Shown piece after piece: positions 45,430-64,000 of a stretch of DNA of 64,000 nt (positions are counted from its first letter, which is position 1; the number at the start of each line of letters is the position of its first letter). The translations under genes were made by a program, and so were the position numbers. The stretch is taken from assembly GCF_028330985.1 (NCBI RefSeq), contig NZ_JAQMUE010000105.1:1-64000 (forward strand), written 5' to 3'. This stretch comes from Roseofilum reptotaenium CS-1145 (GTDB lineage Bacteria; Cyanobacteriota; Cyanobacteriia; Cyanobacteriales; Desertifilaceae). A model generated the notes under the pieces. That model did no database searches and was not told the DNA's origin. It worked only from the letters and a program-made list of their open reading frames with translations.

Positions 45430-45462
45430 CTAATCTAAATTTTTGAGGGGACTAGAAACTCA

Positions 45463-46585: not shown

Positions 46586-46610
46586 GATTTTAGTTCAATC
46601 AGGAAATTTT

Positions 46611-48034: not shown

Positions 48035-48301
48035 GTTTTAATTATCCCGTGAATGGTTTAGACTCGATCGTAGCTTAATCTATAGCGATCGCCGATCGCA
48101 CCGGCTCTTGGCTTAAGGGTGAATAATCGGCTACAATTCCTTCTAGGGTCAATCTGGGCGATCGCCTTTTTGCGCGATTAATCTGTATTACAGGATACTC
48201 TGGACTCCTTGGGTTCAATTGCCTTGGCTAGACGGAGCGATCGTATCGTATTCTAGTTTAATACTCATTTATTCCATACTTCTGGTTTAGGTTAACATAC
48301 A

Positions 48302-49219
48302 ATGACTCTTCCCAACTTTATCCTTCTAGGGGCAGCAAAATCCGGGACTAGCTCTGTCTGGAATTACCTCAAACAGCATCCCCAGGTGTTCATGTCTAAT
48401 CCTAAAGAACCTAACTTTTTTGTCTTTGAAGGGATGAAGTTACCCCCATTTATCGGGCCAGAACCTCCAGAAATTTTGTGTAAAAGATTATATCAAAACA
48501 CGATTACTGATTGGCAAAGCTATCAACAATTGTTTGATAGGGTCTCTGGAGAAAGTGCCATTGGCGAAGCCTCAGTCAGATATCTTTATTTTCCCCAAGC
48601 CCCGGAAAAGATTAAGAACTATCTTCCGGATGTAAAAATGATTGTTATGTTACGAAATCCGGTGGATCGGTTGTATTCTCATTATGTGATGAATCTCCGG
48701 CATTTACTAGAACCTTTATCCTTAGAAGATGCTTTAGCCCAAGAGAAAGAGAGAATCAATAATCGTTGGGGTTGGGATTGGCATTATACTCAAGTGGGGA
48801 TGTATTCAGAACAAATTAAGCGATATTTAGATTACTTTCCCCCAGAACAACTGAAAATTATTGTATATGATGATTTTCGCCAAGATCCCCTAGGGACAAT
48901 GAAGGAAGTGTATCAGTATCTAGGGGTAGATGATACTTTTGTCCCAAATGTTGAAGGACGAAAAAATCAAGGATATTGGCCGAAAAATAAATTAGTCCAT
49001 CAGTTTTTATATACCTCTAATTCCTTAAAGTCATTTCTAGAAAAATGGCTCCCACGGTCTTTATCTCAGAAGTTAATCAAAAACTTGAAGCAATGGAATA
49101 GTGCCCCTATTCCCGCCTTATCCATGGAGTTAAGACAATCTCTGAATGAAGTCTTTCGGTCTGATATTATCAACCTTAAAGAGATTTTGCATCGAGAGAT
49201 TGCTTGGTTAGACTCATGA
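48302..49219 (+). CDS. Sulfotransferase (PAPS-dependent)
   Basis: 305 residues. The 5'-phosphosulfate loop is LLGAAKSGTSSVWNYLKQHPQV (about 8-29), the 3'-phosphate motif MLRNPVDRLYSHYVMN lies near 120, and YDDFRQDPLGTMKEVYQYLGVDD is the second family block. It moves sulfate from PAPS to a hydroxyl or amine, commonly on a polysaccharide or lipid. It ends 2 bp from the end of the FG-GAP gene of the minus-strand acyl cluster, so it may act on the same product. Confidence 0.88.
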   Translation: MTLPNFILLGAAKSGTSSVWNYLKQHPQVFMSNPKEPNFFVFEGMKLPPFIGPEPPEILCKRLYQNTITDWQSYQQLFDRVSGESAIGEASVRYLYFPQAPEKIKNYLPDVKMIVMLRNPVDRLYSHYVMNLRHLLEPLSLEDALAQEKERINNRWGWDWHYTQVGMYSEQIKRYLDYFPPEQLKIIVYDDFRQDPLGTMKEVYQYLGVDDTFVPNVEGRKNQGYWPKNKLVHQFLYTSNSLKSFLEKWLPRSLSQKLIKNLKQWNSAPIPALSMELRQSLNEVFRSDIINLKEILHREIAWLDS

Positions 49220-49221
49220 GC

Positions 49222-51171
49222 TTAGACTTGCTGGATAATTAAGAGTTTATCAATTTCTGGGTTGGGAATGTCTTGAGTTTTTCCATTGGGCCAAGTGACT
49301 TGAATGGACTCAACTTTATCTTGCTGTCCTAAACCAAAGTAGAGTCGGTAGTGACCTTGAGATCGCCAAGCCCCATCTGCTTGACCAACTTGCTGGAATT
49401 GAGTCCCATTTTCGGTAATGACTTTAACTTTACCACCAATAGCGACTGTATTGCCCGCAGCCCCTTTCAATTCTATTTGTAACCAATGGTTCTCATTTCC
49501 AGGATTTCGATAGAGCAACACTTTAGACTTGCTAGATTTGCTTAATTCAGCAATATCCTCGGCTTTCTTTTGTTGTTTTTCCCACCAAGACATTTCTTCT
49601 GATTTACCGATCAGTAAGTCGCGATCGCCATCATTATCGGCATCAAACCAAGTACAATAAGCATATCCTCCAAATGTCTTAGGTGAATTAACCTGTAATA
49701 GATTAATTTTCTCAAAGGTGTGATTAGGACGTTGGCGATACATTCCATACCGCAACGTATATAAATCAGTTAACCCATCATTATCATAATCGACCCAGTT
49801 AGCAGCAAAGGCTCTAGAAGGAAGTCCAATAGATTCGGGATCGGTAGCCGTATATTCACCTTGATTATTTGTAAATAATACACTTCCTCTTCTAGAGGCG
49901 GCAAATAAATCTAAGTCTCCATCATTATCATAATCGGCGATCGCAAGTTGATTGACTGAACTCTCCTCTTGCCCTAACTCTTCTGCAACAAAGGTTCCCG
50001 CTTGGTTTCTGTAAAGCCAAAACGTGGTTTCATCAGCCCAAAACAGATCCATATCGCGATCGTTGTCAACATCTAACCATACAAACCAACCCATATCAGA
50101 CATAGCTAAATTTTTCTCTTGTGCCAGATCAATGAAACGACCTTCAGAGATTTGGCGATAGAGTTGATTCGCTTGCAAAGAATTTGGCGGCCAATGCCGT
50201 CCACACATAGTATAAAGATCCAGCAGATTATCTTGGTCAAAATCAACCCAAGCCACTTGTCGTGCTGCACAACCTTGTTTTTTTAACCCAACTTGTTCAG
50301 CAATATCTTCAAAGCCAGATCGGGTTTGCAACATTAATTCATCAGTAGCATTAGGTGCAAGTTCTGGCATCTTCCCAACCATACCACCCCGTACAATCAC
50401 CACATCTAAATTTCCGTCATTGTCATAATCATTCCAAGCCATACCATGCCGATCCATATGAGGTAAGGCATTAATCGGAGGTAGGGAAAAATCATGGGAG
50501 GGGGGAGATCCAAACTTAGAATCGATATAAACCTGGGTTAAATCCGATTCAGAATTGAGTTTGAAAAATGGTGGGAAAAAAGGATAAGATGCGGGAAAGG
50601 CGATCGATAAACGACCATTGCCTTTGATCTGGAAGTTCACCAACCTGACTTTATCGAGTCCCCCAGATAAAGCATTCGTATCATTGATTTTAATGGATAG
50701 ATCGCCCGAAGTTACGGGAGTCGCTGATAGAGGGACAATGACTAATCCACTAAAGTCTTCTGGATTGGAGAGATTTTGGGCAGCGATCGTTAATTGATAG
50801 TTATGCCAATAAATGTATAATCCAGGATCTTGTCTATTCAAAAGCAGATCAGAAACAGGTTGCTCTGTAACTTCATAATTTTGAGGAAATCCTAAATCAT
50901 AAATTTTATTTTCAAATCCTTGACCTTGCTGATTAATATCGAAAATTTGCCGGGCGTTATGATTGGCAGAATAGATATCTAAATAGGTATCTTGATTAAT
51001 ATCAGCCACCCCTAAATCAAAGAGAGAATAGACAGAGTCCAGATTTTCTTGAGTATAACCAGAATCAATATTTAATGGATACTGATCCAGATCTCGCTGT
51101 GTCCATAGGATAATAGATAAACTCACTAATCCAAGAATAAATAATATAAGAATATTGCGTTTCATGTTCAC
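49222..51171 (-). CDS. FG-GAP/VCBS repeat protein with ASPIC/UnbV-like C-terminus
   Basis: 649 residues. An N-terminal hydrophobic segment (ILILFILGLVSLSIILW) acts as signal anchor. The body contains many calcium-binding FG-GAP loops (DYDNDGNLDVVIV, DFDQDNLLDLYTM, DVDNDRDMDLFWAD, DYDNDGDLDLFAA, DADNDGDRDLLIG), which should fold as a beta-propeller outside the membrane. The end (GAWRSQGHYRLYFGLGQQDKVESIQVTWPNGKTQDI) matches the ASPIC/UnbV domain. The role is probably adhesion or organisation of an exported product. It is the last gene of the minus-strand operon, 15 bp after the TVP38 gene. Confidence 0.83.
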   Translation of the reverse strand: MNMKRNILILFILGLVSLSIILWTQRDLDQYPLNIDSGYTQENLDSVYSLFDLGVADINQDTYLDIYSANHNARQIFDINQQGQGFENKIYDLGFPQNYEVTEQPVSDLLLNRQDPGLYIYWHNYQLTIAAQNLSNPEDFSGLVIVPLSATPVTSGDLSIKINDTNALSGGLDKVRLVNFQIKGNGRLSIAFPASYPFFPPFFKLNSESDLTQVYIDSKFGSPPSHDFSLPPINALPHMDRHGMAWNDYDNDGNLDVVIVRGGMVGKMPELAPNATDELMLQTRSGFEDIAEQVGLKKQGCAARQVAWVDFDQDNLLDLYTMCGRHWPPNSLQANQLYRQISEGRFIDLAQEKNLAMSDMGWFVWLDVDNDRDMDLFWADETTFWLYRNQAGTFVAEELGQEESSVNQLAIADYDNDGDLDLFAASRRGSVLFTNNQGEYTATDPESIGLPSRAFAANWVDYDNDGLTDLYTLRYGMYRQRPNHTFEKINLLQVNSPKTFGGYAYCTWFDADNDGDRDLLIGKSEEMSWWEKQQKKAEDIAELSKSSKSKVLLYRNPGNENHWLQIELKGAAGNTVAIGGKVKVITENGTQFQQVGQADGAWRSQGHYRLYFGLGQQDKVESIQVTWPNGKTQDIPNPEIDKLLIIQQV

Positions 51172-51186
51172 ACTCTCTGTTTATGT

Positions 51187-51855
51187 TTATTTAGGATTTA
51201 TTTTCTCGATAATTTCTCTAGAAATCATCCGACGACGACGATACCATGTCGCCATACCAATTAATAGGCCAGAAAGAGCAAATGCTGCCAATAAAGGCAA
51301 AATTTCTCCAGTTTGAATTGCCTTAACACCTTCACTTCCCAATAGAATAAAAGGAAACAGACCCAATATCGTTCCGATCGCTGTGCCTAACAGATAATCT
51401 TTAAAACTGACTGATGTTAAACCCGCCGCAAAATTAACGATTCCGTAAGGAATAACCGGCAGCAGGCGAATAGCAAAAATATAGAATACACCTCCTTGAT
51501 AAATTTCCGCATCCATAGCTTTCCAATAACCTTTAAGCTTATCAGACACCATTTTTTGCCCGTTTATTCGAGTAAATCCAAAGCCAATTAAGGCAGAAAT
51601 AATGGACGCTAAACTCGTCCAAAATAATCCCAACCAAGGCCCAAATATTACTCCCCCCATCAAATTTAGAGGTGTAGTTGGTAAAATTAGCAAGGTTGAG
51701 ATGATATAAATCATCATAAAAAAGAGTGGAGTCCAAAATCCTGTAGATTCTAGCCAAAGCTCCAGTTTTGAAGAATCAACTCCCGCCAACCCGTAAACCC
51801 CTGCTAGAGTCACAATAATACTAATAACAAAAATAATCAGAAAAATACCTTTCAT
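51187..51855 (-). CDS. TVP38/TMEM64 (DedA-like) membrane protein
   Basis: 222 residues, about five to six membrane segments. The SNARE-associated/DedA domain is visible as LPTTPLNLMGGVIFGPWLGLFW (re-entrant loop) and FAIRLLPVIPYGIVNFAAGLTSV with the conserved F-x2-R...P-x2-P...N-x2-AG. Recent work links members to flipping of undecaprenyl phosphate or phospholipids. Here it could recycle or flip the lipid carrier used by the neighbouring acyltransferases. It lies 19 bp after the SGNH gene. Confidence 0.85.
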   Translation of the reverse strand: MKGIFLIIFVISIIVTLAGVYGLAGVDSSKLELWLESTGFWTPLFFMMIYIISTLLILPTTPLNLMGGVIFGPWLGLFWTSLASIISALIGFGFTRINGQKMVSDKLKGYWKAMDAEIYQGGVFYIFAIRLLPVIPYGIVNFAAGLTSVSFKDYLLGTAIGTILGLFPFILLGSEGVKAIQTGEILPLLAAFALSGLLIGMATWYRRRRMISREIIEKINPK

Positions 51856-51874
51856 TCAACCTAATAAAGATCGG

Positions 51875-53068
51875 CTATCTATTTTGGCTTTCAAGACTCG
51901 CCAGGACATCCAATTTTATTGAATTCACAAAGTCTACTTCTTGACGATTATTTTTTGCCCAAATTTCTCTATTGATACGATCTTTATCCAGAACATCATC
52001 TATATTTTTAGGAGTTAAAAGAAGCCCAAAATCATCAAACTCTTTTTTCTCTTCATTACCTAAAACACGATTCACAACCAAGTCCCCAATCGGCTTTATA
52101 TAATGAGAGTCATCAACATAATTATTCATAGTTTCAGATAGGGGTTCAGTCGTAATACTATTATAATTGAAAAAATCCCAAACAGGCGCGATCGAAACCA
52201 TTCGTCTTTTCCAATCTTCCAAAACACTCCATTTCCCACTGGCATAAATTGATTCTAGTCGAATCGCATGAGCAGGAGAAAAATAAATAATCAATTCTAC
52301 ATTATGTTTTTGACACAGATCAACAATTTTTTGAAACTCGTGAATATATTCTTCTGATAGTTTATAATCATGATGTAACTTAAAATAAAGTTTTGTAGAT
52401 CCCTCAAATCGAATGGTTGTATTACCGTCCTCTTTCTTGAAGTAAGGCAAGAACCCCTGTTGTGATAATGCTTCTTCATTCTCCGATCCTTCTACACTTG
52501 CTTCAATAGTTTCTTGGCTCGCTTCCAGGGTATCTAAAGATAACAGAGTATTGAGAAAATCTTCAAAAACAATATGTTTTTTTTCTAAACGAGACTCAGT
52601 AAAACTGGGCTGATTGTCTAAATTTTCATTAAACATAAAGAAATCCAACCCTAAAATCACTCTCTGTAAATTTGGATTATTCACGAGTGTGTGCTCAACA
52701 TATCTCCTCAGTTCATAAATATTTGCACCATTAAGACCTAGGTTATAAACAGGGGCAAAAGTTTGTAGGGATGGATGATTGGGATCTAAAGCTCTTTTCA
52801 TTCTGGATGAGCCAAGTAAAATAGTATTGGGTTTAAGATGAATAATCTCTATGGCTTTATAGAGCCTATCATTATTTTCCTTGTTGGGTTTATGATGATT
52901 TAATCCATAAACCACAAATTTTTCATCATATACTCCGTAGGGATCAATTATCATATTGAAGCTCCCCACGACAATTAACGGTAGGGCCATAAATGAAAAG
53001 AATAAAATATTAAAAAATATGTGCTTTTTGTCTTTTCTTTTAAAAGGCAGATTACTTTTATAGATCAT
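51875..53068 (-). CDS. SGNH-like partner of MBOAT acyltransferase (copy 1)
   Basis: 397 residues with one N-terminal membrane anchor (IFFNILFFSFMALPLIVVGSF). TILLGSSRMKRAL (about 82-94, Ser87/88) and DDSHYIKPIGD near residue 327 give the Ser and Asp-x-His of SGNH/GDSL-type proteins such as AlgJ, AlgX and DltD. In those systems an MBOAT protein carries the acyl chain across the membrane and the SGNH partner places it on the target outside. It lies 21 bp downstream of an MBOAT gene, which supports this pairing. Confidence 0.75.
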   Translation of the reverse strand: MIYKSNLPFKRKDKKHIFFNILFFSFMALPLIVVGSFNMIIDPYGVYDEKFVVYGLNHHKPNKENNDRLYKAIEIIHLKPNTILLGSSRMKRALDPNHPSLQTFAPVYNLGLNGANIYELRRYVEHTLVNNPNLQRVILGLDFFMFNENLDNQPSFTESRLEKKHIVFEDFLNTLLSLDTLEASQETIEASVEGSENEEALSQQGFLPYFKKEDGNTTIRFEGSTKLYFKLHHDYKLSEEYIHEFQKIVDLCQKHNVELIIYFSPAHAIRLESIYASGKWSVLEDWKRRMVSIAPVWDFFNYNSITTEPLSETMNNYVDDSHYIKPIGDLVVNRVLGNEEKKEFDDFGLLLTPKNIDDVLDKDRINREIWAKNNRQEVDFVNSIKLDVLASLESQNR

Positions 53069-53089
53069 TTTTGATTCATCGGGAATAAG

Positions 53090-54571
53090 TTAGAACTGAA
53101 AATACAAAAATTCTGATACACGATTCATAGATAATAAGCAGATTCCGGTTAATAAACCCAGGCAACAAGACCAGATAAAATCAGGTTTAAATTTGTGCAT
53201 CAATTCTTGGGTATTTGGCATATATTTGACAGCAATGGTTAAGAGGACTAGAATTACAAATGGTAAGCGATCGCTATCCCAAAACTCTGGCAAGTAATTC
53301 AACGATCGCCAGGATTGAACTTGAATTCCAAATTGAGTTAATATAGCTAATCTTCCGGTTGGCTCTCCAGGTAAAACCAATCCATTTCCAGCCATCATAA
53401 CTTGTAAAATTTTCAGCCCGTTCGATAGGGTATCGGCTCTAAATAAAACCCAGGCTCCAATAACAGACAAAAACGTAATTAACCACGATAGAAGCTTAGG
53501 TAGAGAAATATTTAACTTACGCCAACCATGATTAACACAAAGATAGAAACCGTGCAGTCCTCCCCAAATCACATAAGTCCAACCTGCACCATGCCATAAT
53601 CCCCCAAGCAACATGGTCATCATTAGATTAGTATAACGCTGAACTTCTCCTTGACGACTACCTCCTAGAGGAATATAGAGATAATCCCGCAGGAAGTTAG
53701 ATAAAGTAATGTGCCAACGTCGCCAAAAATCACTAATGGACGTGGCTTTGTAAGGGGAATTAAAGTTAATGGGTAAGTTAATATTAAACAATAATCCTAA
53801 ACCGATCGCCATATCAGAGTAGCCAGAGAAGTCAAAGTACAGTTGATAGGTATAACTGAGCACACCAACCCAGGATTCAATGAAAGTAATTTCATTGGGG
53901 TGATCGAATACGGTAGCGACCCAAGGGGAAAGATTATCCGCGATTAAAACCTTCTTACATAATCCCAGGCTAAATAATACTAGACCTCGGCTAAAATTCT
54001 CATGGGAAAAAACATACCTTCTAAGGTTCCGTAATTGCGGGATCAATTCATCATGACGAAGAATAGGACCAGCAATCAATTGAGGAAAGAAGACGACAAA
54101 TAAGCTATAGGTTAAAATATCATAGTTGAGGTCTTTCGTTTCTCCTCGATAGGCATCGACCAGATAAGCAATTTGGGTAAAGGTATAAAAAGAGATTGCT
54201 AAGGGTAAAATAATTGTAGGAATAGAGAAGTTAGCCTGAATAACTTGGTTGACAGAAGTGATGAAGAAGTTCGCATACTTGTAGTAACCAATCGTGACTA
54301 AATTGAGAGTAATCCCGATCCAGAGTAAGGTTTTAGCAGATTGACTTTTGGGTTGAGCATAGGCAATGCTCTTTCCCATTTGATAGTTAAAAATAACGGA
54401 TATGAACAGGAGGGGCAAGTAAGCAATATTCCAATAGGCATAAAATGCAAAGGAAGCCGCAGTTAACCAAACTTGAGATGCTTTGATCAATTTGAATTGA
54501 TTTAAAGTCAAAAATACCGTTAAGGTTATCGGTAAAAATACAAAAATAAAAATGTAAGAGTTGAACAGCAT
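53090..54571 (-). CDS. MBOAT family O-acyltransferase (copy 1, AlgI-like)
   Basis: 493 residues, ten or more membrane segments. MBOAT hallmarks are DFSGYSDMAIGLGLLFNINLPINFNSPY, SISDFWRRWHITLSNFLRDYLYIPLGG and the invariant His residues in LGGLWHGAGWTYVIWGGLHGFYL. AlgI/DltB-like members pass an acyl group from a carrier protein through the membrane to an extracytoplasmic acceptor. The acyl carrier protein and its loading enzymes are encoded further upstream in the same operon. Confidence 0.92.
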   Translation of the reverse strand: MLFNSYIFIFVFLPITLTVFLTLNQFKLIKASQVWLTAASFAFYAYWNIAYLPLLFISVIFNYQMGKSIAYAQPKSQSAKTLLWIGITLNLVTIGYYKYANFFITSVNQVIQANFSIPTIILPLAISFYTFTQIAYLVDAYRGETKDLNYDILTYSLFVVFFPQLIAGPILRHDELIPQLRNLRRYVFSHENFSRGLVLFSLGLCKKVLIADNLSPWVATVFDHPNEITFIESWVGVLSYTYQLYFDFSGYSDMAIGLGLLFNINLPINFNSPYKATSISDFWRRWHITLSNFLRDYLYIPLGGSRQGEVQRYTNLMMTMLLGGLWHGAGWTYVIWGGLHGFYLCVNHGWRKLNISLPKLLSWLITFLSVIGAWVLFRADTLSNGLKILQVMMAGNGLVLPGEPTGRLAILTQFGIQVQSWRSLNYLPEFWDSDRLPFVILVLLTIAVKYMPNTQELMHKFKPDFIWSCCLGLLTGICLLSMNRVSEFLYFQF

Positions 54572-54617
54572 TTTTGTTTTTGAGAAAAGAGAACTATCAA
54601 AACTGAGTTAACTTTGG

Positions 54618-56468
54618 TTACTCATTAGAACAAGATTGATCCCAATGGGTTGTTTGTTCAACAGTTTGGTCTTCCCCTGGGGGGACAGTGCGCTCATCCA
54701 TAAAATAGACTGTGATTTGATCCATTTGTTGTTCACCGGTATGATTTTGATTCCAAGTTCGGCATAAGTAGTCACCGAAATAAGGATAAAGACGTTTACC
54801 AATCGATCGATTCAGGTTGATATAATAGGTTCGCCACTGCATGTTCGGATACCAGCGATTCCGTTGTTTGAGAGTTGGTTTTTCCCAACTTACTTCCCCT
54901 GTTTTTCGGTTGAGAAGATCTACGGATGTGCCATCTTTCAGTTGGCCTTGAATGATGTGCCAGCCATCATCTTTAGGAGGAGAGGGGGCAAAAATACTCC
55001 ATCCTTGATCTAAGCGAGTTAAACCTCCAAATCCTTCTATTCTCTGAAAAGTTCTTTTGGATAGAATTCGATTGATGGTATGGTCTCGACTTAGGGTTCT
55101 GTTGGCTAATTTTTTAATGTTCCAAAAGGTGGCATAAGCAAATAGCAAGATCGCCACTACACTTAAGAAAGAAGATGGTCGAACAACTAATGGACGGAAT
55201 TTAAAGGGAGCGGTAAACTTACCGGCAAATTTACGGTTATTGGCAATAGTCTCATAGAATTTATTACCCAAATTCATTAAGGGTTGCCAACGTAAAACTC
55301 TGGCAAAAGGCTTGAAGATGGGAGATAAACTAACTACATAGGCGATCGCGTCCCACTTAAAACGGCGCTTCTCTTGCCAATCTACCACTACCCAAGAATT
55401 GTAGGCTTCCATATCAGCGTAAATTGAGGGTTCATTTTGAGCGCAGATGAGGGGAGTAGTACCGGGTAGAACTAAGAACGTTCGCAGTAGATAAACCACT
55501 TTTTTGCAAAAACCACACTCTGCGTCATAGTAAATTTTTAATCCCATGCGTTGTGGAGTGGCTACACGCTTTTCGAGATAATCCCAAAATTCACTCGGAA
55601 GAAAAACTAACCAGCTTGCACTGCTAAGAAATGGAAAAATTCCAATTTCAAATCCTAAGCCAAAGCTAATATGGAGAAGAATAAACGTTATAACTGTGAG
55701 CGTTCTAACGATAGGAGTCCGAAAGGGGACAAATAGCAATAAAGGGCCTAACCATTCAATCACTAATGTGGCATGAGTTGCCAGAGTCATGAGCGGGGGG
55801 AAATTCAAACCCCATTCAGCGACTGGAGTAGCATATTGATCAAAACTAAAAGCGTAATAAACTGCATCGCCGTCAGGGAACCAAATTGAACTACTGACTT
55901 TGAAGGCAGCAGAAAACATATAGATATAGCATTGCTGAAAATGTAAGGCTAAGGTTGCTCCAGTTAAAATTCGTTTGGGAAGTTTTTCACGTGAAGAGTT
56001 GAGCGCACTATCGATGGAATAGGTAGCTCCTAAAGGTAAAAACATTGCCCAAAACATTAGTGCCCTAATTACATCATCAGCAGCAAAAATAACAAATGGA
56101 TGGCGATTATGAAGAGAAATTAATAAGGCCCAAGATGCAATGGTGGCTAATCGAGTTCTGTACCCAACCAGCATTCCTAATGCCATGAGTAAAGCAAAGG
56201 AAAATAATAGGGCTTGAACAATGGTTTGACCGCTGAGAGCATGAATTGACCAATACCCAGGTTTGAGAAGTTCAAATAAGACAGGTGTGGGCAAAACACC
56301 TTCATTAGAGTATAGGTCTCTGATATCTCTAGAGCGGATCAATAAATCGGCGATTAAGACGAGGGATAAACCGATTCGGAATAAGGCAAAAGAGCGCAAG
56401 TCTAACCCAAATATCTGTTCTAGTTTATTGCGCCAGGGAGATAAGACTGATTTGCTTTCACTCACCAT
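54618..56468 (-). CDS. HTTM domain protein fused to a DCC (DUF393) thiol-oxidoreductase domain
   Basis: 616 residues. Residues 1 to about 300 form the HTTM domain (horizontally transferred transmembrane, related to vitamin K-dependent gamma-carboxylase): FALFRIGLSLVLIADLLIRSRDI, LHNRHPFVIFAADDVIRALMFWAMFLPLG, HFQQCYIYMFSAAFKVSSSIWF. Residues of about 310-430 carry a DCC domain with KIYYDAECGFCKKVVYLLR, whose CxxC is the presumed redox pair. A further membrane span and a polar C-terminal domain of about 170 residues follow. The reaction is unknown; carboxylation or redox chemistry at the membrane is possible. It lies 46 bp before the MBOAT copy 1 gene. Confidence 0.82.
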   Translation of the reverse strand: MVSESKSVLSPWRNKLEQIFGLDLRSFALFRIGLSLVLIADLLIRSRDIRDLYSNEGVLPTPVLFELLKPGYWSIHALSGQTIVQALLFSFALLMALGMLVGYRTRLATIASWALLISLHNRHPFVIFAADDVIRALMFWAMFLPLGATYSIDSALNSSREKLPKRILTGATLALHFQQCYIYMFSAAFKVSSSIWFPDGDAVYYAFSFDQYATPVAEWGLNFPPLMTLATHATLVIEWLGPLLLFVPFRTPIVRTLTVITFILLHISFGLGFEIGIFPFLSSASWLVFLPSEFWDYLEKRVATPQRMGLKIYYDAECGFCKKVVYLLRTFLVLPGTTPLICAQNEPSIYADMEAYNSWVVVDWQEKRRFKWDAIAYVVSLSPIFKPFARVLRWQPLMNLGNKFYETIANNRKFAGKFTAPFKFRPLVVRPSSFLSVVAILLFAYATFWNIKKLANRTLSRDHTINRILSKRTFQRIEGFGGLTRLDQGWSIFAPSPPKDDGWHIIQGQLKDGTSVDLLNRKTGEVSWEKPTLKQRNRWYPNMQWRTYYINLNRSIGKRLYPYFGDYLCRTWNQNHTGEQQMDQITVYFMDERTVPPGEDQTVEQTTHWDQSCSNE

Positions 56469-56492
56469 TGTATGACCCTCTATTTTAAAGTT

Positions 56493-57752
56493 CTATTGAA
56501 TACCTGTGGGATAGTTTTTAGCTTTACGTTTTCGAGTTTTAAAAATCCAATTTACCCATCCCATCCACCATCCTTGTAACCAACTGAGGAAAACTTGTAG
56601 GCGATGAGAGATTGTGGGCATCCTAATTAAATAAACCAGATTTCTAAATAAAAAAGCAAGCGATCCATGAAAATGTAGACCAAAGCTAGATACTGCTGCG
56701 TCATTCACTCCTACGGTTATCATTTCGCCTAAATGAAGATACCGAAACTTTTTGAGTCGTTTTTGGTGGACTCTAGACCGGAGATTTTTGGCTGCAACTG
56801 GTGCTTGTTGATATGCAGCTTGAGCTGTCCGGGGAATTTCTGAGTTACTGGGGATATCGGCAATATCGCCCAAGGCAAATACTTCTGGATATCCTTTTAA
56901 CTGAAGGGTAGGTTCGACTAATAATTGTCCATAACGATTATGTTCACAGTCTAGATCTAAAACCCACGATCGCGCTTTAGTCCCTGTTGTCCAAATCACT
57001 AAGTCAGTCGGCAATGTTATGGTTTCATTGGCTTGTTCGACGATTAACCGATTGGCTTGGACTAAGTTAACTTGGGTTAGGAAACTAATCCTTACGTTTC
57101 TTTCTTCCAGTGCTTTTTCAGCGGTGAGGCGAGTTGCTTTGGTAAAAGATCGCAGAATTCTATCTCCCCTCGTAATTAAACGGACTTCTGCTTTCTGTCC
57201 TAAATAGTCTGCAATTTTCGTGGCTAATTCGACTCCAGAAGGACCCCCTCCGACAATGGCTATTTGGACAGGAGCTTTGCTTAGACTCCGAAAATCCTGT
57301 AATTTCTTTTTTAAAAATTCAGTATCCTTTAGAGTCCGAAAACTGACAGCATGTTCTTTGACTCCAGGGACATTATCGATCAGACTCTTTACTCCTACTG
57401 CAATAATCAAATAATCATACTGAAGTTCTCCCCTGTCTTGTAGGTAAACTTGCTGTTTTTTTAAATCAGTTCCTAGGATATGATCTTGATAGAATTTGAT
57501 TTTTTTCTGGCGAATTAACTTCGAGAAGGGGGGGGCAATTTCCCAAATTTGAAGTTCATTGGTAATTAATTCATAGAGTAAAGGGGTAAATAAAATATGA
57601 TCGTTTTGATCGATGAGGGTGACTTGTAGTTCAGAAAAGCGCTGGAGATATAAGGCCGCATAGAGTCCTCCAAATCCTCCCCCAAGAATACAGACCTTGA
57701 AAGGGGATTGAATGCTTGTATGAGGGGAGGAAAGATCAATAGGAGTATGCAT
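56493..57752 (-). CDS. Type II NADH dehydrogenase-like flavoprotein
   Basis: 419 residues. FAD-binding GGGFGGLYAALYLQR near the N-terminus, the second Rossmann motif AIVGGGPSGVELATKIA for NAD(P)H, and the FALGDIADIPSN segment that contacts FAD are all present. NDH-2 enzymes move electrons from NADH to quinone at the membrane surface; the basic, amphipathic C-terminus (SWLQGWWMGWVNWIFKTRKRK) fits membrane attachment. In this operon it may serve a desaturation or redox step (for example for the DCC or dehydrogenase proteins) rather than general respiration. It is 2 bp from the SGNH gene upstream. Confidence 0.87.
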   Translation of the reverse strand: MHTPIDLSSPHTSIQSPFKVCILGGGFGGLYAALYLQRFSELQVTLIDQNDHILFTPLLYELITNELQIWEIAPPFSKLIRQKKIKFYQDHILGTDLKKQQVYLQDRGELQYDYLIIAVGVKSLIDNVPGVKEHAVSFRTLKDTEFLKKKLQDFRSLSKAPVQIAIVGGGPSGVELATKIADYLGQKAEVRLITRGDRILRSFTKATRLTAEKALEERNVRISFLTQVNLVQANRLIVEQANETITLPTDLVIWTTGTKARSWVLDLDCEHNRYGQLLVEPTLQLKGYPEVFALGDIADIPSNSEIPRTAQAAYQQAPVAAKNLRSRVHQKRLKKFRYLHLGEMITVGVNDAAVSSFGLHFHGSLAFLFRNLVYLIRMPTISHRLQVFLSWLQGWWMGWVNWIFKTRKRKAKNYPTGIQ

Positions 57753-57754
57753 GA

Positions 57755-58714
57755 TCAGTTTTGGCCAGAGGTGGGATTGGGTTCGGGTAAAGAATCTAGA
57801 ATGGGTTTCAATTCTTTGACAAGCTGCTCACCTCTAACTTTCCTCCCTTCAGGATTTAAATGGTAATGGGTATCGGCAAACCAGCTAACATTACTTTGAA
57901 CATTTAAGGTATCTGGATCGTAAATTAAGGGAGCTATTTTTTCGAGTTTTTCGATGGTGATTTGTACATTTTTGATGGTTTTGTCGTTTCTATCGCCATA
58001 AATCCAAGGCAACGATAGGATGAGTGTACCGCCTTTGGCTTCCACTTCAGTTTTAAACTGACTAATCCGCTTAATTGCATGTTTGGAAGGGGGTTTGTTA
58101 ACGACCATTTGCCACCACTTTCCAGTACGCTCTTGATAAGCAATGGGGTCTCCTTGGGCGGTGACATCTGAATAGTAACCGGTTAATTTTCCTTCTTCAA
58201 TTAAGTCCCATGTGGATTCAACGGCTCCCCGAAGGGTGAGAACGCCTAATAAGAAGCCTTCTTGAGCAAGTTCTTTGGCAGGAATATTGCCAACTGTGGG
58301 TTGTCCGGTGGCAATGGCTAGAGCAGCGGAGCGATCGCTAATTCCATCGTCATCCCACAAAACAAAATTGTATTCTGGAATCAACAATACCACATCTCCA
58401 GGCTGAACATGCTGGAGAATACTGGGTAAAATGACATTTAATCCCACTGGACCGTCTAATCCGAGATTTAAGACCGGGATACCGAGTTGCTCCTGCAAGA
58501 GGACGGAATCAATGGTGAAATGAGCGCCCGATCCTCCCATAATCAGGAGTCTGCGGGGGGCTTCTATGGGTTCAGAGGCGATCGCCATCTTCGATTCATA
58601 TAACCTCCGTAACCAACTCAAATTCCCCCCATAGCGAGCATTATGGTAATAGCCGATACCCCATGCTATTCCCGCAATTAATACCCAACTGCCTAATCTT
58701 AGTGCTGTCTGCAT
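57755..58714 (-). CDS. SGNH-like partner of MBOAT acyltransferase (copy 2)
   Basis: 319 residues with an N-terminal anchor (LGSWVLIAGIAWGIGYY). LLIMGGSGAHFTIDSVLLQ (Ser62 region) followed by PVLNLGLDGPVGLNVILPSI, and DTHYHLNPEGRKVRGEQL near the end, give the SGNH-type Ser and Asp-x-x-His. It differs strongly from copy 1 outside the motifs, so the two pairs are not a recent duplication. It sits 17 bp after the second MBOAT gene, again as an MBOAT/SGNH pair. Confidence 0.75.
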   Translation of the reverse strand: MQTALRLGSWVLIAGIAWGIGYYHNARYGGNLSWLRRLYESKMAIASEPIEAPRRLLIMGGSGAHFTIDSVLLQEQLGIPVLNLGLDGPVGLNVILPSILQHVQPGDVVLLIPEYNFVLWDDDGISDRSAALAIATGQPTVGNIPAKELAQEGFLLGVLTLRGAVESTWDLIEEGKLTGYYSDVTAQGDPIAYQERTGKWWQMVVNKPPSKHAIKRISQFKTEVEAKGGTLILSLPWIYGDRNDKTIKNVQITIEKLEKIAPLIYDPDTLNVQSNVSWFADTHYHLNPEGRKVRGEQLVKELKPILDSLPEPNPTSGQN

Positions 58715-58731
58715 AGGTTTCTCAATCTAGT

Positions 58732-60189
58732 TTAGAAATCAAAATAGATAAACTCTGAAGGAGTATTTGCCCCAAGCAAAATAGCCAATCCTAATAATCC
58801 TCTGGAAACCCAAGGGGACACCAAGATATCATATTCTGCTCGTTTTTGCCAAACGGCCAAATGTTCAAGAAAGAGAACTCCTAAAGCTAAAGCCAGGGTG
58901 ACCATTAAAGCACTCATTTGATTGGTATTATAATCGCTAAAAACGGATGTAAAATTACCAAAAGAATAAGCCAACGGATTAATTAAGGATTTTAACTTCA
59001 GGACTAATCGACCGATATTAGTATCCATGAAGAATAGACAACCCAACGTTACAGAGACAAACGTTAATCCCCAAGAGATAAACTCAGTTTTAGAAGTCCA
59101 CTGTCCTATCAGCTTTTGGAAGGGACGACCGGCGTATCGTAAAACCAGAAGGAGTCCTCCATGATACGCGCCCCAGAGGATAAAATTCCAGGCGGCTCCA
59201 TGCCAAAAACCGGACAATGTAAACGTAACAAATAAGTAAAAGGGGGCCCATTTTTTGTTTCGGCCCATCAAAGGAATAAACACATAATCTCGGAACCAGT
59301 TACTTAGGGTAATATGCCAGCGCCGCCAAAATTCCTGAATACTAACAGAGGTATAGGGGGCTAAAAAATTAAGCTCTAGCTTGACTCCAAAAAACTTTGC
59401 AATGCCCACCGCCATAAAACTATAGCCCCCAAAGTCAAAGTAAATTCTGAGGGTAAAGAGAAAGGCATGGAACCAAATAAACCAAGCATTACTGGTTTCT
59501 TGTAACTCAATATAAGGGGCAATGTTATCGGCAAGGACAAATTTCATGAACATCCCTAAGGATAACCAGCGCAACCCATATTCTAAGTTTTCCACAGTAA
59601 ACTTAAACTGAAAGCCTTGGAGCTGGGGTAAAAGTTGACTACGCCGTTCAATTGGACCCGCAACAATTTGGGGGAAAAAGGCAATAAAGTTTACATAATC
59701 GACAAAATTAATCGGCTTTTTCCGCTTAGAGACATAGGAATCAACAACGAAAGCCACCATTTGAAACGTATAGAAGGAGATGCCTGGTGGAATTTGCTGG
59801 AATACCGGTAGCGGAAACGTTTGTTTCCAGTTAGAAGGGATCGTAAACCCTAAACCGATCACATCTTCAACCAAGAAAGTTAAGTATTTGAAGTAAGCTA
59901 AAACACTGACATCAAAAATAATTAAGGTTGCCGCCACTAGATAGGCTTTCCAACCTTTATACTGCAACATAAACTTCACCATCAGGTAATTAAAGATAAC
60001 CTGAAAGATGAAGATAATGAAGCTGGAGAAGCTAGCATTTAAGAATAAAATTAGGGACAGGAACATTAAGCCCAAGGTATCCAAATACCTTGGCCACAAG
60101 TTAAAACTTTTGCCAATGAGCCTAATTGTAAAAAATGGAACTGAAAATAAAAACAGAATCCACCAGAAAGAAAAATCGGAGAAGTTCAA
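58732..60189 (-). CDS. MBOAT family O-acyltransferase (copy 2)
   Basis: About 485 residues from the TTG at 60189, which has AAGAGAGGA upstream; the longest frame begins with another TTG at 60243 and adds 18 polar residues. Hallmarks are IYFDFGGYSFMAVGIAKFFG, VSIQEFWRRWHITLSNWFRDYVFIPLMG and LSGFWHGAAWNFILWGAYHGGLLL with the two invariant His. Sequence differs clearly from MBOAT copy 1, so they probably use different acceptors or acyl groups. It lies downstream of the acyl carrier protein gene, the likely acyl source. Confidence 0.9.
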   Translation of the reverse strand: MNFSDFSFWWILFLFSVPFFTIRLIGKSFNLWPRYLDTLGLMFLSLILFLNASFSSFIIFIFQVIFNYLMVKFMLQYKGWKAYLVAATLIIFDVSVLAYFKYLTFLVEDVIGLGFTIPSNWKQTFPLPVFQQIPPGISFYTFQMVAFVVDSYVSKRKKPINFVDYVNFIAFFPQIVAGPIERRSQLLPQLQGFQFKFTVENLEYGLRWLSLGMFMKFVLADNIAPYIELQETSNAWFIWFHAFLFTLRIYFDFGGYSFMAVGIAKFFGVKLELNFLAPYTSVSIQEFWRRWHITLSNWFRDYVFIPLMGRNKKWAPFYLFVTFTLSGFWHGAAWNFILWGAYHGGLLLVLRYAGRPFQKLIGQWTSKTEFISWGLTFVSVTLGCLFFMDTNIGRLVLKLKSLINPLAYSFGNFTSVFSDYNTNQMSALMVTLALALGVLFLEHLAVWQKRAEYDILVSPWVSRGLLGLAILLGANTPSEFIYFDF

Positions 60190-60313
60190 TGAGTGGCTTC
60201 CTCTCTTAACGCTGTGATCGGTGGGGTGAGACTTGATCTTCAACAGCTAAGGAGAGAAAAACCCCTCCTTAACTTCAAAAGTATAGCTGTCAGGGGAAAA
60301 ATAAGGGTTCAGT

Positions 60314-60703
60314 TTACTTACCTTTAAAGAATCCACCCCAGCCTGATTTCTTCGTTTTTTCTGCTGGTGCCGCCTTGGCTTCTTCTCCCTCTGAACTATC
60401 CAAGTCAGAAATATCAAATTCAGATACTAAATATTGGGCTGCATTTTCAATGGTGGGGTGATCCCAAAATAGAGTAGAGGGTAATTCTACATCATCTAGA
60501 TCTAGCCAATCTTCTAAGTCTCCCACTAAGGTTACCGCATCAATGGAATCTAAACCATAGCGAGTTAGAGATTCGCTAACATCAATTTCGTCTGGTTTTT
60601 TAGACAATACTTCAGCTAACTGGTTAACCAGCCAAGTTTGCAGCACTTCAACAGGTGATTGTTCAGTTTGAGTTTGTTCGGACGTAGAATTTTGAACTTG
60701 CAT
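60314..60703 (-). CDS. Acyl carrier protein
   Basis: 129 residues. The carrier domain spans about 18-98 with the phosphopantetheine Ser53 in RYGLDSIDAVTLVGDLEDWL and the typical LPSTLFWDHPTIENAAQYL helix. A C-terminal tail of about 30 residues, acidic then Lys/Gly-rich (EKTKKSGWGGFFKGK), extends past the domain and could dock to the membrane or to a partner enzyme. Gene order (ligase, dehydrogenase, carrier) shows that it receives the acyl group from the fatty acyl-AMP ligase. It lies 19 bp after the dehydrogenase gene. Confidence 0.9.
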   Translation of the reverse strand: MQVQNSTSEQTQTEQSPVEVLQTWLVNQLAEVLSKKPDEIDVSESLTRYGLDSIDAVTLVGDLEDWLDLDDVELPSTLFWDHPTIENAAQYLVSEFDISDLDSSEGEEAKAAPAEKTKKSGWGGFFKGK

Positions 60704-60722
60704 GGGTTGGAGTCTCCTCTGT

Positions 60723-62477
60723 TTAGAGAGTTGCTAGTTGGAAAGGAACAATAGAGAACATTTGTTTCTGTTCATACAGCTTAACGAGTTGCTGGGCAAC
60801 GGTTTCCATATAGGGAGCAGGAACCGGATGCGATCGCCCGAAGGGGGCTAACAGTCGATTTAGGCTTAGAATCAGCCATTTGCCCTCAGCGAAAAACTCA
60901 TCTAGGTTTTCCCGATTATAAACCCACATCTGCACACATGAAGCTGCTGCATGTAAGGTGCAATATTTTTTCGCCAACTCAAACAGTTCTGGGGATTGAT
61001 TGTGACCATATTCAAAGGCTGAGTTAGCAATGAATTGATCGTGGGCATCAAGCTCCTCAAGAATAGCTTGAGTCAAGGCAATCACGGGTTCAATAATTTC
61101 TGGGCTGACTGCATTTTTCTCTTTCAGCATCTTAAGCTGGCCTAAAGTAATTTCTAAGCCTTGTAGAACATCATCCGCCCCACGGCCAACTAATTCTAAT
61201 TTCTCTGGTTCAAACTTAGGAAGCTCTTGATCTAAGGCAAAGATCGTATTCAGACGCTGACCAATTTGTTCCATTTTAGTGTCATTTCGTCTGGATCTAG
61301 ATTTAGAAATTTGACGAAATTGGAGCAGCAAGGCATGGAGATTCACGACACTACTGCCATCAAATACACTAATAATTAAATTGTCTCGTAAAACTTTCTG
61401 GAAAATCCCCGAATCATGTTCTTCACGCATATAGAATCGTGAACCCAACACCACGGAGATATCATTAATCATATTCTCCAGTTGAATGGTGACGAAATAC
61501 TTGACGACGGCTGCCCAAACACTGAATTGTTGGGGGACAACATGAAATCCCCTAGCTGAGGCGATCGTTTCACACTCACAGATGAGAAGATCCAAAAATG
61601 CATTGACCAAAGTATGGCGGGGTTGGGGCATCTGGAAAACAGTTGTTCCATAAACCGCCCGTGAGAGGGCAAATTTTAGGGTAGTTCTCAAAGCTGTGTC
61701 TGCGGCTCCATGGGAAAATGCAGAACACAAGGTGCGCGTAATTTGGAATCCTTTCAGGGCTAACTCTAATCCGGCACCTTCTTCTTTCAAGAGCATATCA
61801 TCAGGAACAAAGCAATCTTTGAACCCAATACCACTCATATCTGATGCCCGAATTCCATGGGTCAAAATTTTGGGCAAATTGTAATACTGATCGGGATTTA
61901 GACGGCTTTTCTCTACCATAAATAGGGACAGGCTTCTGGCTGCTGCACTGTCCTCTGTTTTGGCTAAAATGTAAGAAACACCAGAAATGGTTGCCCGGTT
62001 AATCGGCCATTTTTCTCCGTTTAAGAGGTAACCACCATCGACTTTCTTGGCACTGAGGTCTCCTCCTGTTAAATCAGCCCCATGTTCCCGTTCGGAATAA
62101 CCAAGACACATGGCACCATTTTCATTTCTCATGTAATTCGATAACCAAGCTTTTTGCTCTGGAGTACCGGCCATCCAGGTAATAAATGACCAAAACATGG
62201 TTGTAAAGGCAATACCAATGGTTTGGTCTCTGCGACATAAGACCCGAACAATAGCAACAAACTCTTCAAAGGAGGTAAACTCACCCCCATATTGCTGGGG
62301 AACATAGTAGTTCTGAAGTTTCCAGTCATAGAGCCAGTTTACTTGCTCATGGGGAAATGCTTCTGATTCATCAATATCAACGACCTGTTTATAGGACATG
62401 ATATTATCGGGAGATTCTGGATTCCCCAGAGCCTGTTCTAGCTTTTCAGCTAGGCAATATTGTTTCAGTTGCTGCAT
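60723..62477 (-). CDS. Acyl-CoA dehydrogenase-like protein (acyl-ACP desaturating)
   Basis: 584 residues from ATG 62477, with GGAAAAG upstream; a TTG at 62504 that overlaps the ligase stop is the alternative. The N-terminal helical domain, the flavin-binding LGYSEREHGADLTGGDLSAKKVDGGYLLNGEKWPINRAT and the C-terminal helix bundle with SRAVYGTTVFQMPQPRH...LRDNLIISVFDGSSVVN follow the ACAD fold. It is about 200 residues longer than ordinary members (C-terminal extension). In FAAL-ACAD-ACP sets known from lipopeptide and polyketide clusters this enzyme oxidises the ACP-bound chain at C2-C3. Confidence 0.85.
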   Translation of the reverse strand: MQQLKQYCLAEKLEQALGNPESPDNIMSYKQVVDIDESEAFPHEQVNWLYDWKLQNYYVPQQYGGEFTSFEEFVAIVRVLCRRDQTIGIAFTTMFWSFITWMAGTPEQKAWLSNYMRNENGAMCLGYSEREHGADLTGGDLSAKKVDGGYLLNGEKWPINRATISGVSYILAKTEDSAAARSLSLFMVEKSRLNPDQYYNLPKILTHGIRASDMSGIGFKDCFVPDDMLLKEEGAGLELALKGFQITRTLCSAFSHGAADTALRTTLKFALSRAVYGTTVFQMPQPRHTLVNAFLDLLICECETIASARGFHVVPQQFSVWAAVVKYFVTIQLENMINDISVVLGSRFYMREEHDSGIFQKVLRDNLIISVFDGSSVVNLHALLLQFRQISKSRSRRNDTKMEQIGQRLNTIFALDQELPKFEPEKLELVGRGADDVLQGLEITLGQLKMLKEKNAVSPEIIEPVIALTQAILEELDAHDQFIANSAFEYGHNQSPELFELAKKYCTLHAAASCVQMWVYNRENLDEFFAEGKWLILSLNRLLAPFGRSHPVPAPYMETVAQQLVKLYEQKQMFSIVPFQLATL

Positions 62478-62500
62478 GGACTTTTCCAAAGATAACAGAA

Positions 62501-64000
62501 TCAAGATTGAGATTGAGATTGAAGCTCGGAAGCAAGAGAGTCTACTTCACTTTGTAAATTGCGATAGGTAATCGAGAATTTGGGATTTTCACACCAGTCT
62601 GCAACCACGGTTAAGTTCCCTTCTAAGAAGTTGCTACGACAGGCTCGCCGTTGAATTTTGCCACTGGCTGTTTTGAGAATATTCCCCGCTTTAGCTAATA
62701 CGATCGCATAGGGTTGGATTTCATGAATTTCAGAAATGGCCTGACGAATATCGCCCATGACTTTTTCTGTATCGAAATTTTGGGCTTTCCGTTTGACTTC
62801 TTGAACAATAACCAGTTGTTCTTGTCCTTTGGCTTCAATGGAGAAGGCGGCACCATAATCGGATCGCAAGTCTGGATGAAGTCCTTGCACCGTCCATTCC
62901 AGGTCTTGGGGATAGTGGTTTGTCCCGTGAATAATAATCAGATCTTTGATTCGACCTGTAATATAAATCTCTCCTTCATGGAGGAATCCTAAGTCACCCG
63001 TGCGTAGAAAAGGCCCTTCTTGGGTATCTTTAATATAGGCTTGGAAGGTTTCTTTTGTGGCTTCTGGCCGCTGCCAATATCCCTGAGCGACGCTGGGATC
63101 TTTGACCCAAATTTCCCCAACAGTTTGCTCATTGCATCGGGTTAAGGTACTCGGCTCAACGATCGCCACTTCAGTTTCACATACTAAGCGACCACAGGAG
63201 GGATAGATTCTTACTCCTTCTTCATCTGGTGAAGCCGTCACTACCCGATTTTGTTCTAGTTCGGCTGTATCTACAGGGAGAAATACGGGATCGGTGAGTT
63301 TGGGTTTTGTTGATACTAAGAGGGTATTTTCGGCTAAACCATAGGAAGGGGCAAAGGTATTCCAGCGAAACCCACAGGATTCAAAGGTTTCATAAAAGGT
63401 GCGCATGACTTCTGGGTTAATCGGTTCTGCCGCATTCCCGGCGGCTTCCCAAGAGCTTAAATCAAGAGTTTCGAGTTGCTTGGGCTTAACCCGGCGTACA
63501 CAGAGGTGATAAGCAAAGTTAGGAGCTTGGCTATGAGTCGCCTTGTACTTGGACATGGCTTGCAACCACCGCAAGGGTTGTTTAATGAAGGAAAAGGGCG
63601 ACATGATGTAGCAGGGGGTGGCGTTAAATAAAGGAACCATCATTCCTTCTACCAAGCCATAGTCATGGAAGTAGGGCATCCAGGTAACGCTGATACTGTT
63701 GGTATCATATCCACAGGCTCTTTGCAGATAGCCGCAGTGATGCATTAAGTTGCTGTGGCTAAGCATTACCCCCTTGGGGGTTGAGGTTGAGCCGGATGTG
63801 TATTGCAGGTAGGCTAGGGTCTCTGAGGTGACTTGAGGGTCTTCCCATTGGTTCGCAAGGTCTAGGGAAATGGTTGAGGTATCAATCCATTGCAGGGTTT
63901 CAAGTTCGGGAAACTCTTCCGAGCCTTCCGCCATTAAGGACTGAATTTGTGTCGTCGTTAGTACCAGAGAAGCTTGGGCATCTTGGATAATGGCTCGTAG
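62501..64000 (-). CDS. Fatty acyl-AMP ligase (FAAL), 5' end outside window
   Basis: The frame stays open to the right window edge, beyond the first in-window ATG (63934), and the added residues (...LRAIIQDAQASLVLTT) fit the family, so the gene is cut. Seen parts: P-loop YTSGSTSTPKGVMLSH, WMPYFHDYGLVEGMMVPLF, FAPSYGLAENTLLV, RTGDLGFLHEGEIYITGRIKDLIIIHG, and the C-terminal catalytic Lys in LKTASGKIQRRACR. FAALs activate free fatty acids as acyl-adenylates and load them onto an ACP without CoA. The stop overlaps or lies 23 bp from the start of the dehydrogenase gene. Confidence 0.9.
   Translation of the reverse strand, partial: LRAIIQDAQASLVLTTTQIQSLMAEGSEEFPELETLQWIDTSTISLDLANQWEDPQVTSETLAYLQYTSGSTSTPKGVMLSHSNLMHHCGYLQRACGYDTNSISVTWMPYFHDYGLVEGMMVPLFNATPCYIMSPFSFIKQPLRWLQAMSKYKATHSQAPNFAYHLCVRRVKPKQLETLDLSSWEAAGNAAEPINPEVMRTFYETFESCGFRWNTFAPSYGLAENTLLVSTKPKLTDPVFLPVDTAELEQNRVVTASPDEEGVRIYPSCGRLVCETEVAIVEPSTLTRCNEQTVGEIWVKDPSVAQGYWQRPEATKETFQAYIKDTQEGPFLRTGDLGFLHEGEIYITGRIKDLIIIHGTNHYPQDLEWTVQGLHPDLRSDYGAAFSIEAKGQEQLVIVQEVKRKAQNFDTEKVMGDIRQAISEIHEIQPYAIVLAKAGNILKTASGKIQRRACRSNFLEGNLTVVADWCENPKFSITYRNLQSEVDSLASELQSQSQS

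Follow-up and report, generated by a model that had tools for sequence, protein, structure and literature searches.

A cyanobacterial operon predicted to join fatty acid activation on a carrier protein to MBOAT/SGNH acyl transfer across the envelope

Introduction

What might an acyl-activation cassette serve when the genes that follow it encode membrane acyltransferases? The question is raised by an operon at the end of a 64,000-nt stretch of DNA from Roseofilum reptotaenium CS-1145 (contig NZ_JAQMUE010000105.1, positions 1 to 64,000; hereafter the window), in which genes for a fatty acyl-AMP ligase (FAAL), an acyl-CoA dehydrogenase-like flavoprotein (ACAD) and an acyl carrier protein (ACP) precede two MBOAT acyltransferase genes with SGNH partners. 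A 2025 review (PMC11837247) treats FAALs, in the available extract, as feeders of polyketide synthase (PKS), nonribosomal peptide synthetase (NRPS) and lipid pathways, and the word MBOAT occurs nowhere in the review. Among the best open-access literature matches, no paper brought a FAAL term together with MBOAT, and open-access titles on MBOAT, SGNH, ACP or DltB in cyanobacteria show nothing on such a module. From sequence comparisons and structural models, we propose, with a probability of roughly 0.7, that the core of this operon encodes a transenvelope fatty-acylation machine.

Results

An eleven-gene operon without PKS or NRPS genes

The operon comprises eleven genes in a row on the minus strand (contig positions 49,222-64,375), with intergenic spacers ranging from -4 bp (a 4-bp overlap between FAAL and ACAD) to 70 bp (between ACP and MBOAT1). 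Pfam identified FG-GAP/UnbV, VTT (TVP38), two MBOAT, HTTM plus DCC1-like, Pyr_redox_2, PP-binding, ACAD and AMP-binding domains in their products; these calls and the ORF (open reading frame) coordinates confirm the eleven-gene minus-strand operon, with its domain families, that an earlier note on this DNA had described. The SGNH partners named there are borne out for SGNH1 by conserved residues and predicted fold, and for SGNH2 by conserved residues only.

The FAAL gene starts at contig position 64,375, 375 bp outside the window (L065:2501-4375), and is bordered on its 5' side by 447 bp without any ORF of at least 90 aa, followed by genes for an AAA ATPase and contractile-tail proteins. The contig was extended upstream to position 80,000 of 101,078, and no ORF of PKS/NRPS size was found between 64,375 and 80,000, the longest encoding 658 aa, in agreement with the earlier claim that the operon has no PKS or NRPS nearby. 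This negative is by ORF size and applies to this genome; the large unassigned ORFs of related loci were family-tested in part.

Predicted fatty acid activation on a carrier protein

FAAL (624 aa; 62,501-64,000 in the window and on to 64,375, minus strand) resembles characterised FAALs over nearly its full length. Its closest PDB match is 7r7e (E = 4e-159, residues 25-594 of 624), with 3kxw (E = 6e-128), FadD32 and FadD23 also among its relatives, and its AMP-binding domain is recognized by Pfam with E = 8e-67; none of its 18 PDB matches at E ≤ 1e-30 is a DltA-named chain. The ACP (60,314-60,703, minus strand; PF00550, E = 2e-15) carries the phosphopantetheine Ser53 in a G-L-D-S-I motif, of which D-S-I with Ser53 is invariant in all 45 aligned sequences. 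In 4 of the 57 related loci described below, a gene for a phosphopantetheinyl transferase is found close to FAAL (Pfam-tested in L003, assigned by similarity in L017, L018 and L022). The identities of FAAL and ACP support the claim that a fatty acid is activated on a carrier.

The further claim that this fatty acid is desaturated on the ACP fared less well. Acyl-CoA dehydrogenases have a catalytic Glu at the MCAD position or, in isovaleryl-type enzymes, at an alternative position. The ACAD-like flavoprotein (593 aa; 60,723-62,504, minus strand), assigned from Pfam ACAD domains and PDB alignments, lacks the Glu at the MCAD position and has Asp382 in its place, aligned with Y-E-G-T-S of 5ol2 and invariant in all 57 aligned sequences, four of them gammaproteobacterial. 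Thr256 precedes Arg257, which suggests that the alternative Glu position is not used either. Desaturation is unproven because an invariant Asp replaces the expected catalytic Glu; Asp382 may still serve in catalysis, and desaturation is not to be assumed.

A Tyr shuttle motif fused to MBOAT1, and a proposed SGNH partner

MBOAT1 (58,732-60,243, minus strand) is the proposed acyl-ACP to Tyr acyltransferase of the operon. In sequence and profile searches, DltB entries are its sole PDB relatives at E ≤ 0.01 (6bug/8jem, E = 3e-29), and its His348, within a WHGA motif, is invariant (46/46) and aligns with DltB His336, an active-site residue according to the extract of PMC11035591. MBOAT/SGNH systems, as outlined in extract in PMC12148441, pass the acyl group via the Tyr of an FXYXXF motif, which in Dlt is borne by the DltX microprotein and in PatA and others forms part of the MBOAT C-terminus; in the same extract, non-Dlt MBOAT/SGNH pathways have no carrier protein similar to that of Dlt. 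MBOAT1 ends in F-I-Y500-F-D-F, and all 55 homologues of more than 420 aa have a C-terminal FIYFxF. This set, like the corresponding set of 14 for MBOAT2, was compiled without the window and fragments of up to 420 aa and with a near twin of the window (L002), and two loci in these sets (L025 and L068, both from contigs of 71,927 bases) are apparently one contig. MBOAT1 thus carries the fused shuttle motif and is accompanied by a carrier and a ligase, and it is this combination that is new.

SGNH1 (57,755-58,714, minus strand), a membrane-anchored protein for which we propose a DltD/PatB role, has Ser62, Asp281 and His285 (Ser...DxxH) invariant in 30 of 30 sequences. Pfam and NCBIfam gave no match at E ≤ 1e-3 and a sequence search of PDB nothing useful. 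Its AlphaFold model (predicted local distance difference test score, pLDDT, 92; one N-terminal helix of membrane length) matches SGNH enzymes, esterases first, with two designed scaffolds at ranks 3 and 4 and DltD (6pfx and 3bma) at ranks 6 and 7 (E ~1e-3). The suggestion of the earlier note that an MBOAT/SGNH pair moves the acyl group across the membrane is supported, and the shuttle motif and the co-occurrence reported below strengthen it.

Gene order is conserved and the core genes co-occur

The ACP served as the sole bait in a search that returned 63 loci, of which 57 were retained after removal of the near-identical twin L002 and five gammaproteobacterial loci; the 57 include two with non-cyanobacterial metagenome-assembled genome (MAG) labels (L013, L030). 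Many of their contigs are truncated, which makes the gene counts minimum values. In the stretches retrieved, MBOAT1 was found in at least 46 loci, FAAL in at least 32, SGNH1 and NDH-2 in at least 28 each, HTTM-DCC in at least 25, MBOAT2 in at least 14 and SGNH2 in at least 13; TVP38 and FG-GAP were found in none. The recurrence of MBOAT1 and FAAL near the ACP indicates that the gene order is kept in relatives and is not due to chance. The fullest order is FAAL-ACAD-ACP-MBOAT1-SGNH1-NDH2-HTTM-MBOAT2-SGNH2, and part or all of the module occurs in loci of Coleofasciculus, Leptolyngbya, Okeania, Crocosphaera and Microcystis. MBOAT1 was not found in 11 loci: eight from Microcystis, one that is cut (L039) and two that look disrupted (L030, L052).

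Several of these loci have features of their own. L013 (Gracilibacteria label) and L030 (Chloroflexaceae label) are MAG contigs with a cyanobacterial-type FAAL-ACAD-ACP and possibly binning errors. L052, from Crocosphaera watsonii WH 8501, keeps the ACP with neither ACAD nor MBOAT1 in the stretch and adjoins unassigned ORFs, possibly a disrupted locus. In Microcystis loci and the look-alike genomes G089 and G091 (L034-L038, L040, L042, L045, L079, L080), ACAD-ACP lies beside a conserved trio of about 207, 558 and 320 aa. The gammaproteobacterial loci (L059, L061-L064) hold FAAL-ACAD-ACP relatives, with the ACAD Asp present in the four aligned and no MBOAT1 in the stretch; a protein of about 1360 aa with weak FAAL similarity comes next in 4 of the 5, and an ORF of 773-845 aa precedes in 4 of the 5, the only one Pfam-tested (L062) being MMPL-type.

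Co-occurrence was surveyed in 194 genomes drawn evenly across the phylum, about half of them from classes other than that of the window. Orthologues were defined as matches above a score gap (MBOAT1, 828 versus 264 bits; SGNH1, 464 bits versus none at E ≤ 1e-15; ACAD, 1042 bits versus none at 1e-80; HTTM-DCC, 854 versus 584 bits; FAAL, 1012 versus 860 bits), and in each genome part of the first-look candidates was scored (6 of up to 89 in the case of FAAL). Orthologues of FAAL, ACAD, MBOAT1, SGNH1 and HTTM-DCC occur in the identical 10 of 194 genomes (G000, G054, G068, G089, G091, G099, G105, G125, G137 and G185), which belong without exception to the class of the window and represent 9 genera in 6 families; three of these genera (g6, g26, g32) also have sampled genomes with none of the five genes. 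The chance of identical sets is 1/C(194,10) = 6e-17, a figure that ignores phylogeny and linkage. Lower-scoring HTTM-DCC paralogues are present in G099 and G137, and also in G139, which has none of the remaining module genes.

In these ten genomes the genes are often unlinked from MBOAT1, lying on another contig or tens of kb away: FAAL in 4, ACAD-ACP in 2, SGNH1 in 3 and HTTM-DCC in 6. ACAD and ACP are adjacent in all ten, and the module of G089 is spread over four sites. Because the module is scattered yet complete, its distribution argues strongly for parts that act together.

A candidate redox arm

The HTTM-DCC fusion (54,618-56,468, minus strand; PF05090 and PF04134) has a CGFC motif (Cys318/Cys321) in its thioredoxin-like DCC part, invariant in 26 of 26 sequences, and an additional C-terminal domain. 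HTTM-DCC is a core part and not a mere oddity of the operon, because it shares the all-or-none distribution of FAAL, ACAD, MBOAT1 and SGNH1. A sequence search of PDB with HTTM returned nothing useful, and the fold search alone was informative. With the predicted model (pLDDT 80; predicted template modelling score, pTM, 0.80), the 16 best PDB matches are all the vitamin K-dependent carboxylase GGCX (E = 2e-6 to 2e-2, 15 of them at E ≤ 2e-4), with moderate TM-scores of 0.20-0.42 by query length, and the next match has E = 0.33 and a probability of 0.06; the model thus has the GGCX fold. The base of GGCX is Lys218, with Lys217, Trp223, Phe294 and Phe299 nearby (PMC12589487, in extract). By spacing only, the invariant Lys190 and Trp196 of HTTM-DCC, 6 residues apart, resemble Lys217-Trp223, with Thr, His or Val at the place of Lys218, and Phe/Leu273 and Phe278 resemble Phe294 and Phe299. 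We regard this spacing match as suggestive only.

The NDH-2-like NAD(P)H:quinone oxidoreductase (56,493-57,752, minus strand; PF07992, E = 3e-53) is more widespread, with a match at E ≤ 1e-80 in 92 of 194 genomes, and a second, lower-scoring relative occurs in the same genome and in many cyanobacteria. This common copy is presumably NdbB, needed for phylloquinone synthesis, an assumption that a literature search did not confirm. NDH-2 was not upheld as an exclusive module marker: module copies score 529-633 bits, a range that includes the module-free G095 (560) and G153 (547).

These two proteins could form a vitamin K-like periplasmic redox cycle, in which the NDH-2 paralogue would reduce phylloquinone or plastoquinone and the GGCX-like HTTM would draw on the hydroquinone and O2 to remove a proton from the acyl chain delivered by the relay, or from its acceptor, and to modify it, for instance by carboxylation, the CGFC DCC domain resetting the thiol or quinone state. 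We consider this version speculative and unlikely.

Two HTTM observations stand apart from this scheme. Genomes G090 and G100 (2.2-2.3 Mb, from another family of the phylum) have several HTTM matches each and no acylation module. In an Okeania operon, an arylsulfotransferase (ASST) gene (L050:16203-17546) separates the full HTTM-DCC gene from a short HTTM fragment.

Accessory genes, passengers and neighbours

MBOAT2 (53,090-54,571, minus strand; PF03062, E = 1e-37) ends in F-L-Y490-F-Q-F, and all 14 homologues of more than 420 aa keep a C-terminal FLYFQF. SGNH2 (51,875-53,068, minus strand), the putative accessory partner of MBOAT2, has no Pfam or NCBIfam match at E ≤ 1e-3 and was assigned from its conserved residues, Gly86-Ser-Ser-Arg and Asp319..His322 being kept in 13-14 of 14. 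In the genome survey, which covered MBOAT2, it reached at least 807 bits in five of the ten genomes that have the module, the other five having no match at E ≤ 1e-100, and close relatives were present without the module in G166 (810 bits) and G110 (718 bits). MBOAT2 and SGNH2 were therefore rejected as obligate parts, and the earlier idea that the activation genes feed two pairs is unproven. The TVP38/VTT membrane protein (51,187-51,855, minus strand; PF09335) and the FG-GAP/UnbV_ASPIC protein (49,222-51,171, minus strand; PF13517, PF07593), which the earlier note had counted among the components, were likewise dropped, being found in 0 of the 57 loci; they appear to be lineage-specific passengers.

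Glycosyltransferases (GT2 and multi-pass PMT types) were found in 11 of the 57 loci, a count that stands without a background rate, and also in the module regions L074, L075 and L078. The count took in proteins positive in Pfam (L016 falling below the Pfam cut-off) or at least 50% identical to seeds from the same loci, and left out L027 (a related protein with no Pfam match) and L018 (a 26% match upstream). A sulfotransferase (48,302-49,219, plus strand; PF00685/PF13469) is the convergent neighbour of the Roseofilum operon, and a homologue 56% identical to it lies inside two Okeania operons (L050 and L051 only). It belongs to a plus-strand block (43,915-49,219) convergent with the operon, which also encodes a carbamoyltransferase, a GT4-type glycosyltransferase and, in two overlapping ORFs, what resembles one split glycosyltransferase (no Pfam match). 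This sugar-decorating block may share a product with the operon. The sulfo- and glycosyltransferase neighbours point to an extracytoplasmic glycan or glycolipid as the most likely acceptor; a link to emulcyan-type acylated polysaccharides, a name that appears in reviews, is an idea only.

Upstream of the operon, a contractile injection-type cluster (contig C105, 64,823-73,218; L065:4823-13218) encodes the AAA ATPase, a Pvc16_N protein, a tail sheath and further small tail-like proteins; three proteins of the cluster were Pfam-tested. It is seemingly unrelated to the operon.

Discussion

A proposed relay and its alternatives

From the protein families, catalytic residues, shuttle motif, conservation and co-occurrence read in sequence and structure, we infer a substrate, acyl-ACP as the donor for MBOAT1, the direction of each step, an acceptor and a role for the redox arm. 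FAAL would adenylate a free fatty acid and load it onto holo-ACP, and the ACAD-like flavoprotein would then act on the acyl-ACP. The ACP would dock at the cytoplasmic face of MBOAT1, where the acyl group, with His348 as catalyst, would be moved to Tyr500 of FIYFxF on the periplasmic side. Acyl-Tyr would pass it to Ser62 of SGNH1, from where it would reach an acceptor outside the cytoplasm, for which a glycan or glycolipid is the likeliest candidate. The NDH-2-like enzyme would, together with HTTM-DCC, form a redox arm, probably quinone-linked, modifying the acyl group or the acceptor.

Four points weigh against this relay. Nine residues (in two pieces) of the DltB contact region for its carrier DltC are absent from MBOAT1, which is why ACP docking is only proposed. 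The fold of the SGNH1 model is closer to esterases than to DltD, so that hydrolysis is possible, and fold does not separate a transferase from a hydrolase. A single transcript is made less likely by the split modules of Microcystis- and Crocosphaera-like genomes, and the glycan acceptor is drawn from neighbours in a minority of loci.

Most of the same genes could instead make a secreted small molecule, the FAAL-ACAD-ACP chain being joined by MBOAT1/SGNH1 to a diffusible or membrane-lipid acceptor and not to an envelope polymer. FAAL-ACP starters are typical of natural products (PMC11837247, in extract), the spread is patchy (10 of 194 genomes), and the gammaproteobacterial relatives precede the weakly FAAL-like protein in 4 of 5 loci, the one upstream ORF tested being an MMPL-type exporter. 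SGNH partners and the shuttle motif, however, belong to envelope-polymer acylation (PMC12148441, in extract), and glycosyltransferases recur as neighbours; we judge a small-molecule product unlikely, with a real residual chance. Much less room is left for ordinary lipo-initiation, the usual role of FAALs (PMC11837247, in extract), in which FAAL-ACAD-ACP would supply a distant PKS/NRPS and the MBOAT/SGNH genes would be unrelated neighbours. MBOAT1, SGNH1, ACAD and FAAL orthologues occupy the identical ten genomes even where unlinked, and 46 of the 57 loci have MBOAT1 close to the ACP. A PKS/NRPS just past the window edge was rejected for this genome from the contig as read to position 80,000, and we regard lipo-initiation as very improbable.

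MBOAT1/SGNH1 might also merely acetylate a surface polymer from acetyl-CoA, as PatA/PatB use it (PMC12148441, in extract), with FAAL-ACP serving the HTTM/NDH-2 arm, and the co-occurrence of all parts would still fit. The closest solved MBOAT, however, is the carrier-fed DltB. MBOAT1 also lacks a G-G-x-R-x-G stretch, found in MBOAT2 before the active-site His, which we take to be a mark of CoA-type MBOATs. That the module includes a FAAL and an ACP speaks for an ACP donor over acyl-CoA, and we give acetylation a slim chance, hardly better than that of lipo-initiation.

If the transenvelope relay is correct, FAAL would exchange D-alanine or acetate for a fatty acid, giving a Gram-negative route for acylating glycans or lipids after their export, of possible relevance to cyanobacterial polymers with hydrophobic or emulsifying properties; we know of no identified enzyme for the acylation of such polymers. 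A bacterial protein resembling the vitamin K-dependent carboxylase would also gain a defined genetic context.

Comparison with known systems

In the jamaicamide, cylindrocyclophane, puwainaphycin and olefin synthase pathways, as in the operon, a FAAL and an ACP activate a free fatty acid, but the operon neighbourhood is devoid of PKS/NRPS modules. GGCX and HTTM proteins share the fold of the HTTM-DCC model, whereas the module protein has a DCC domain, an NDH-2 partner and no clear counterpart of Lys218.

A close parallel is the Dlt system for D-alanylation of teichoic acid (DltA-DltC-DltB-DltD-DltX), which likewise combines an AMP-forming ligase, a dedicated carrier encoded beside an MBOAT, a membrane-anchored SGNH protein and the Tyr motif FXYXXF, so that the proposed relay parallels the attachment of D-alanine outside the Gram-positive cell. 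To our knowledge, cyanobacteria have no teichoic acid. The module ligase is a FAAL and not a DltA-type D-alanine ligase, and its expected cargo is a fatty acid. MBOAT1 and MBOAT2 score 179 and 153 bits, below the 375-bit cut-off of the DltB family TIGR04091; the ACP is not called DltC by Pfam or NCBIfam; neither DltD nor DltX is recognized, SGNH1 and SGNH2 having no family match and the shuttle being fused to MBOAT1; and the module adds ACAD, NDH-2 and HTTM-DCC.

With PatA/PatB and AlgI/AlgJ the module shares an MBOAT carrying a C-terminal shuttle hexapeptide and a separate SGNH protein (PMC12148441, in extract), and it has the C-terminal FXYXXF, the WHGA His and the SGNH Ser...DxxH residues of that type. 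Those systems are described in the same extract as using an acyl-CoA donor and having no similar carrier, whereas the module has its own ligase and carrier. Carrier supply, as in Dlt, and fused-shuttle MBOATs, as in Pat/Alg, are treated there as separate solutions, and the Roseofilum module appears to join both.

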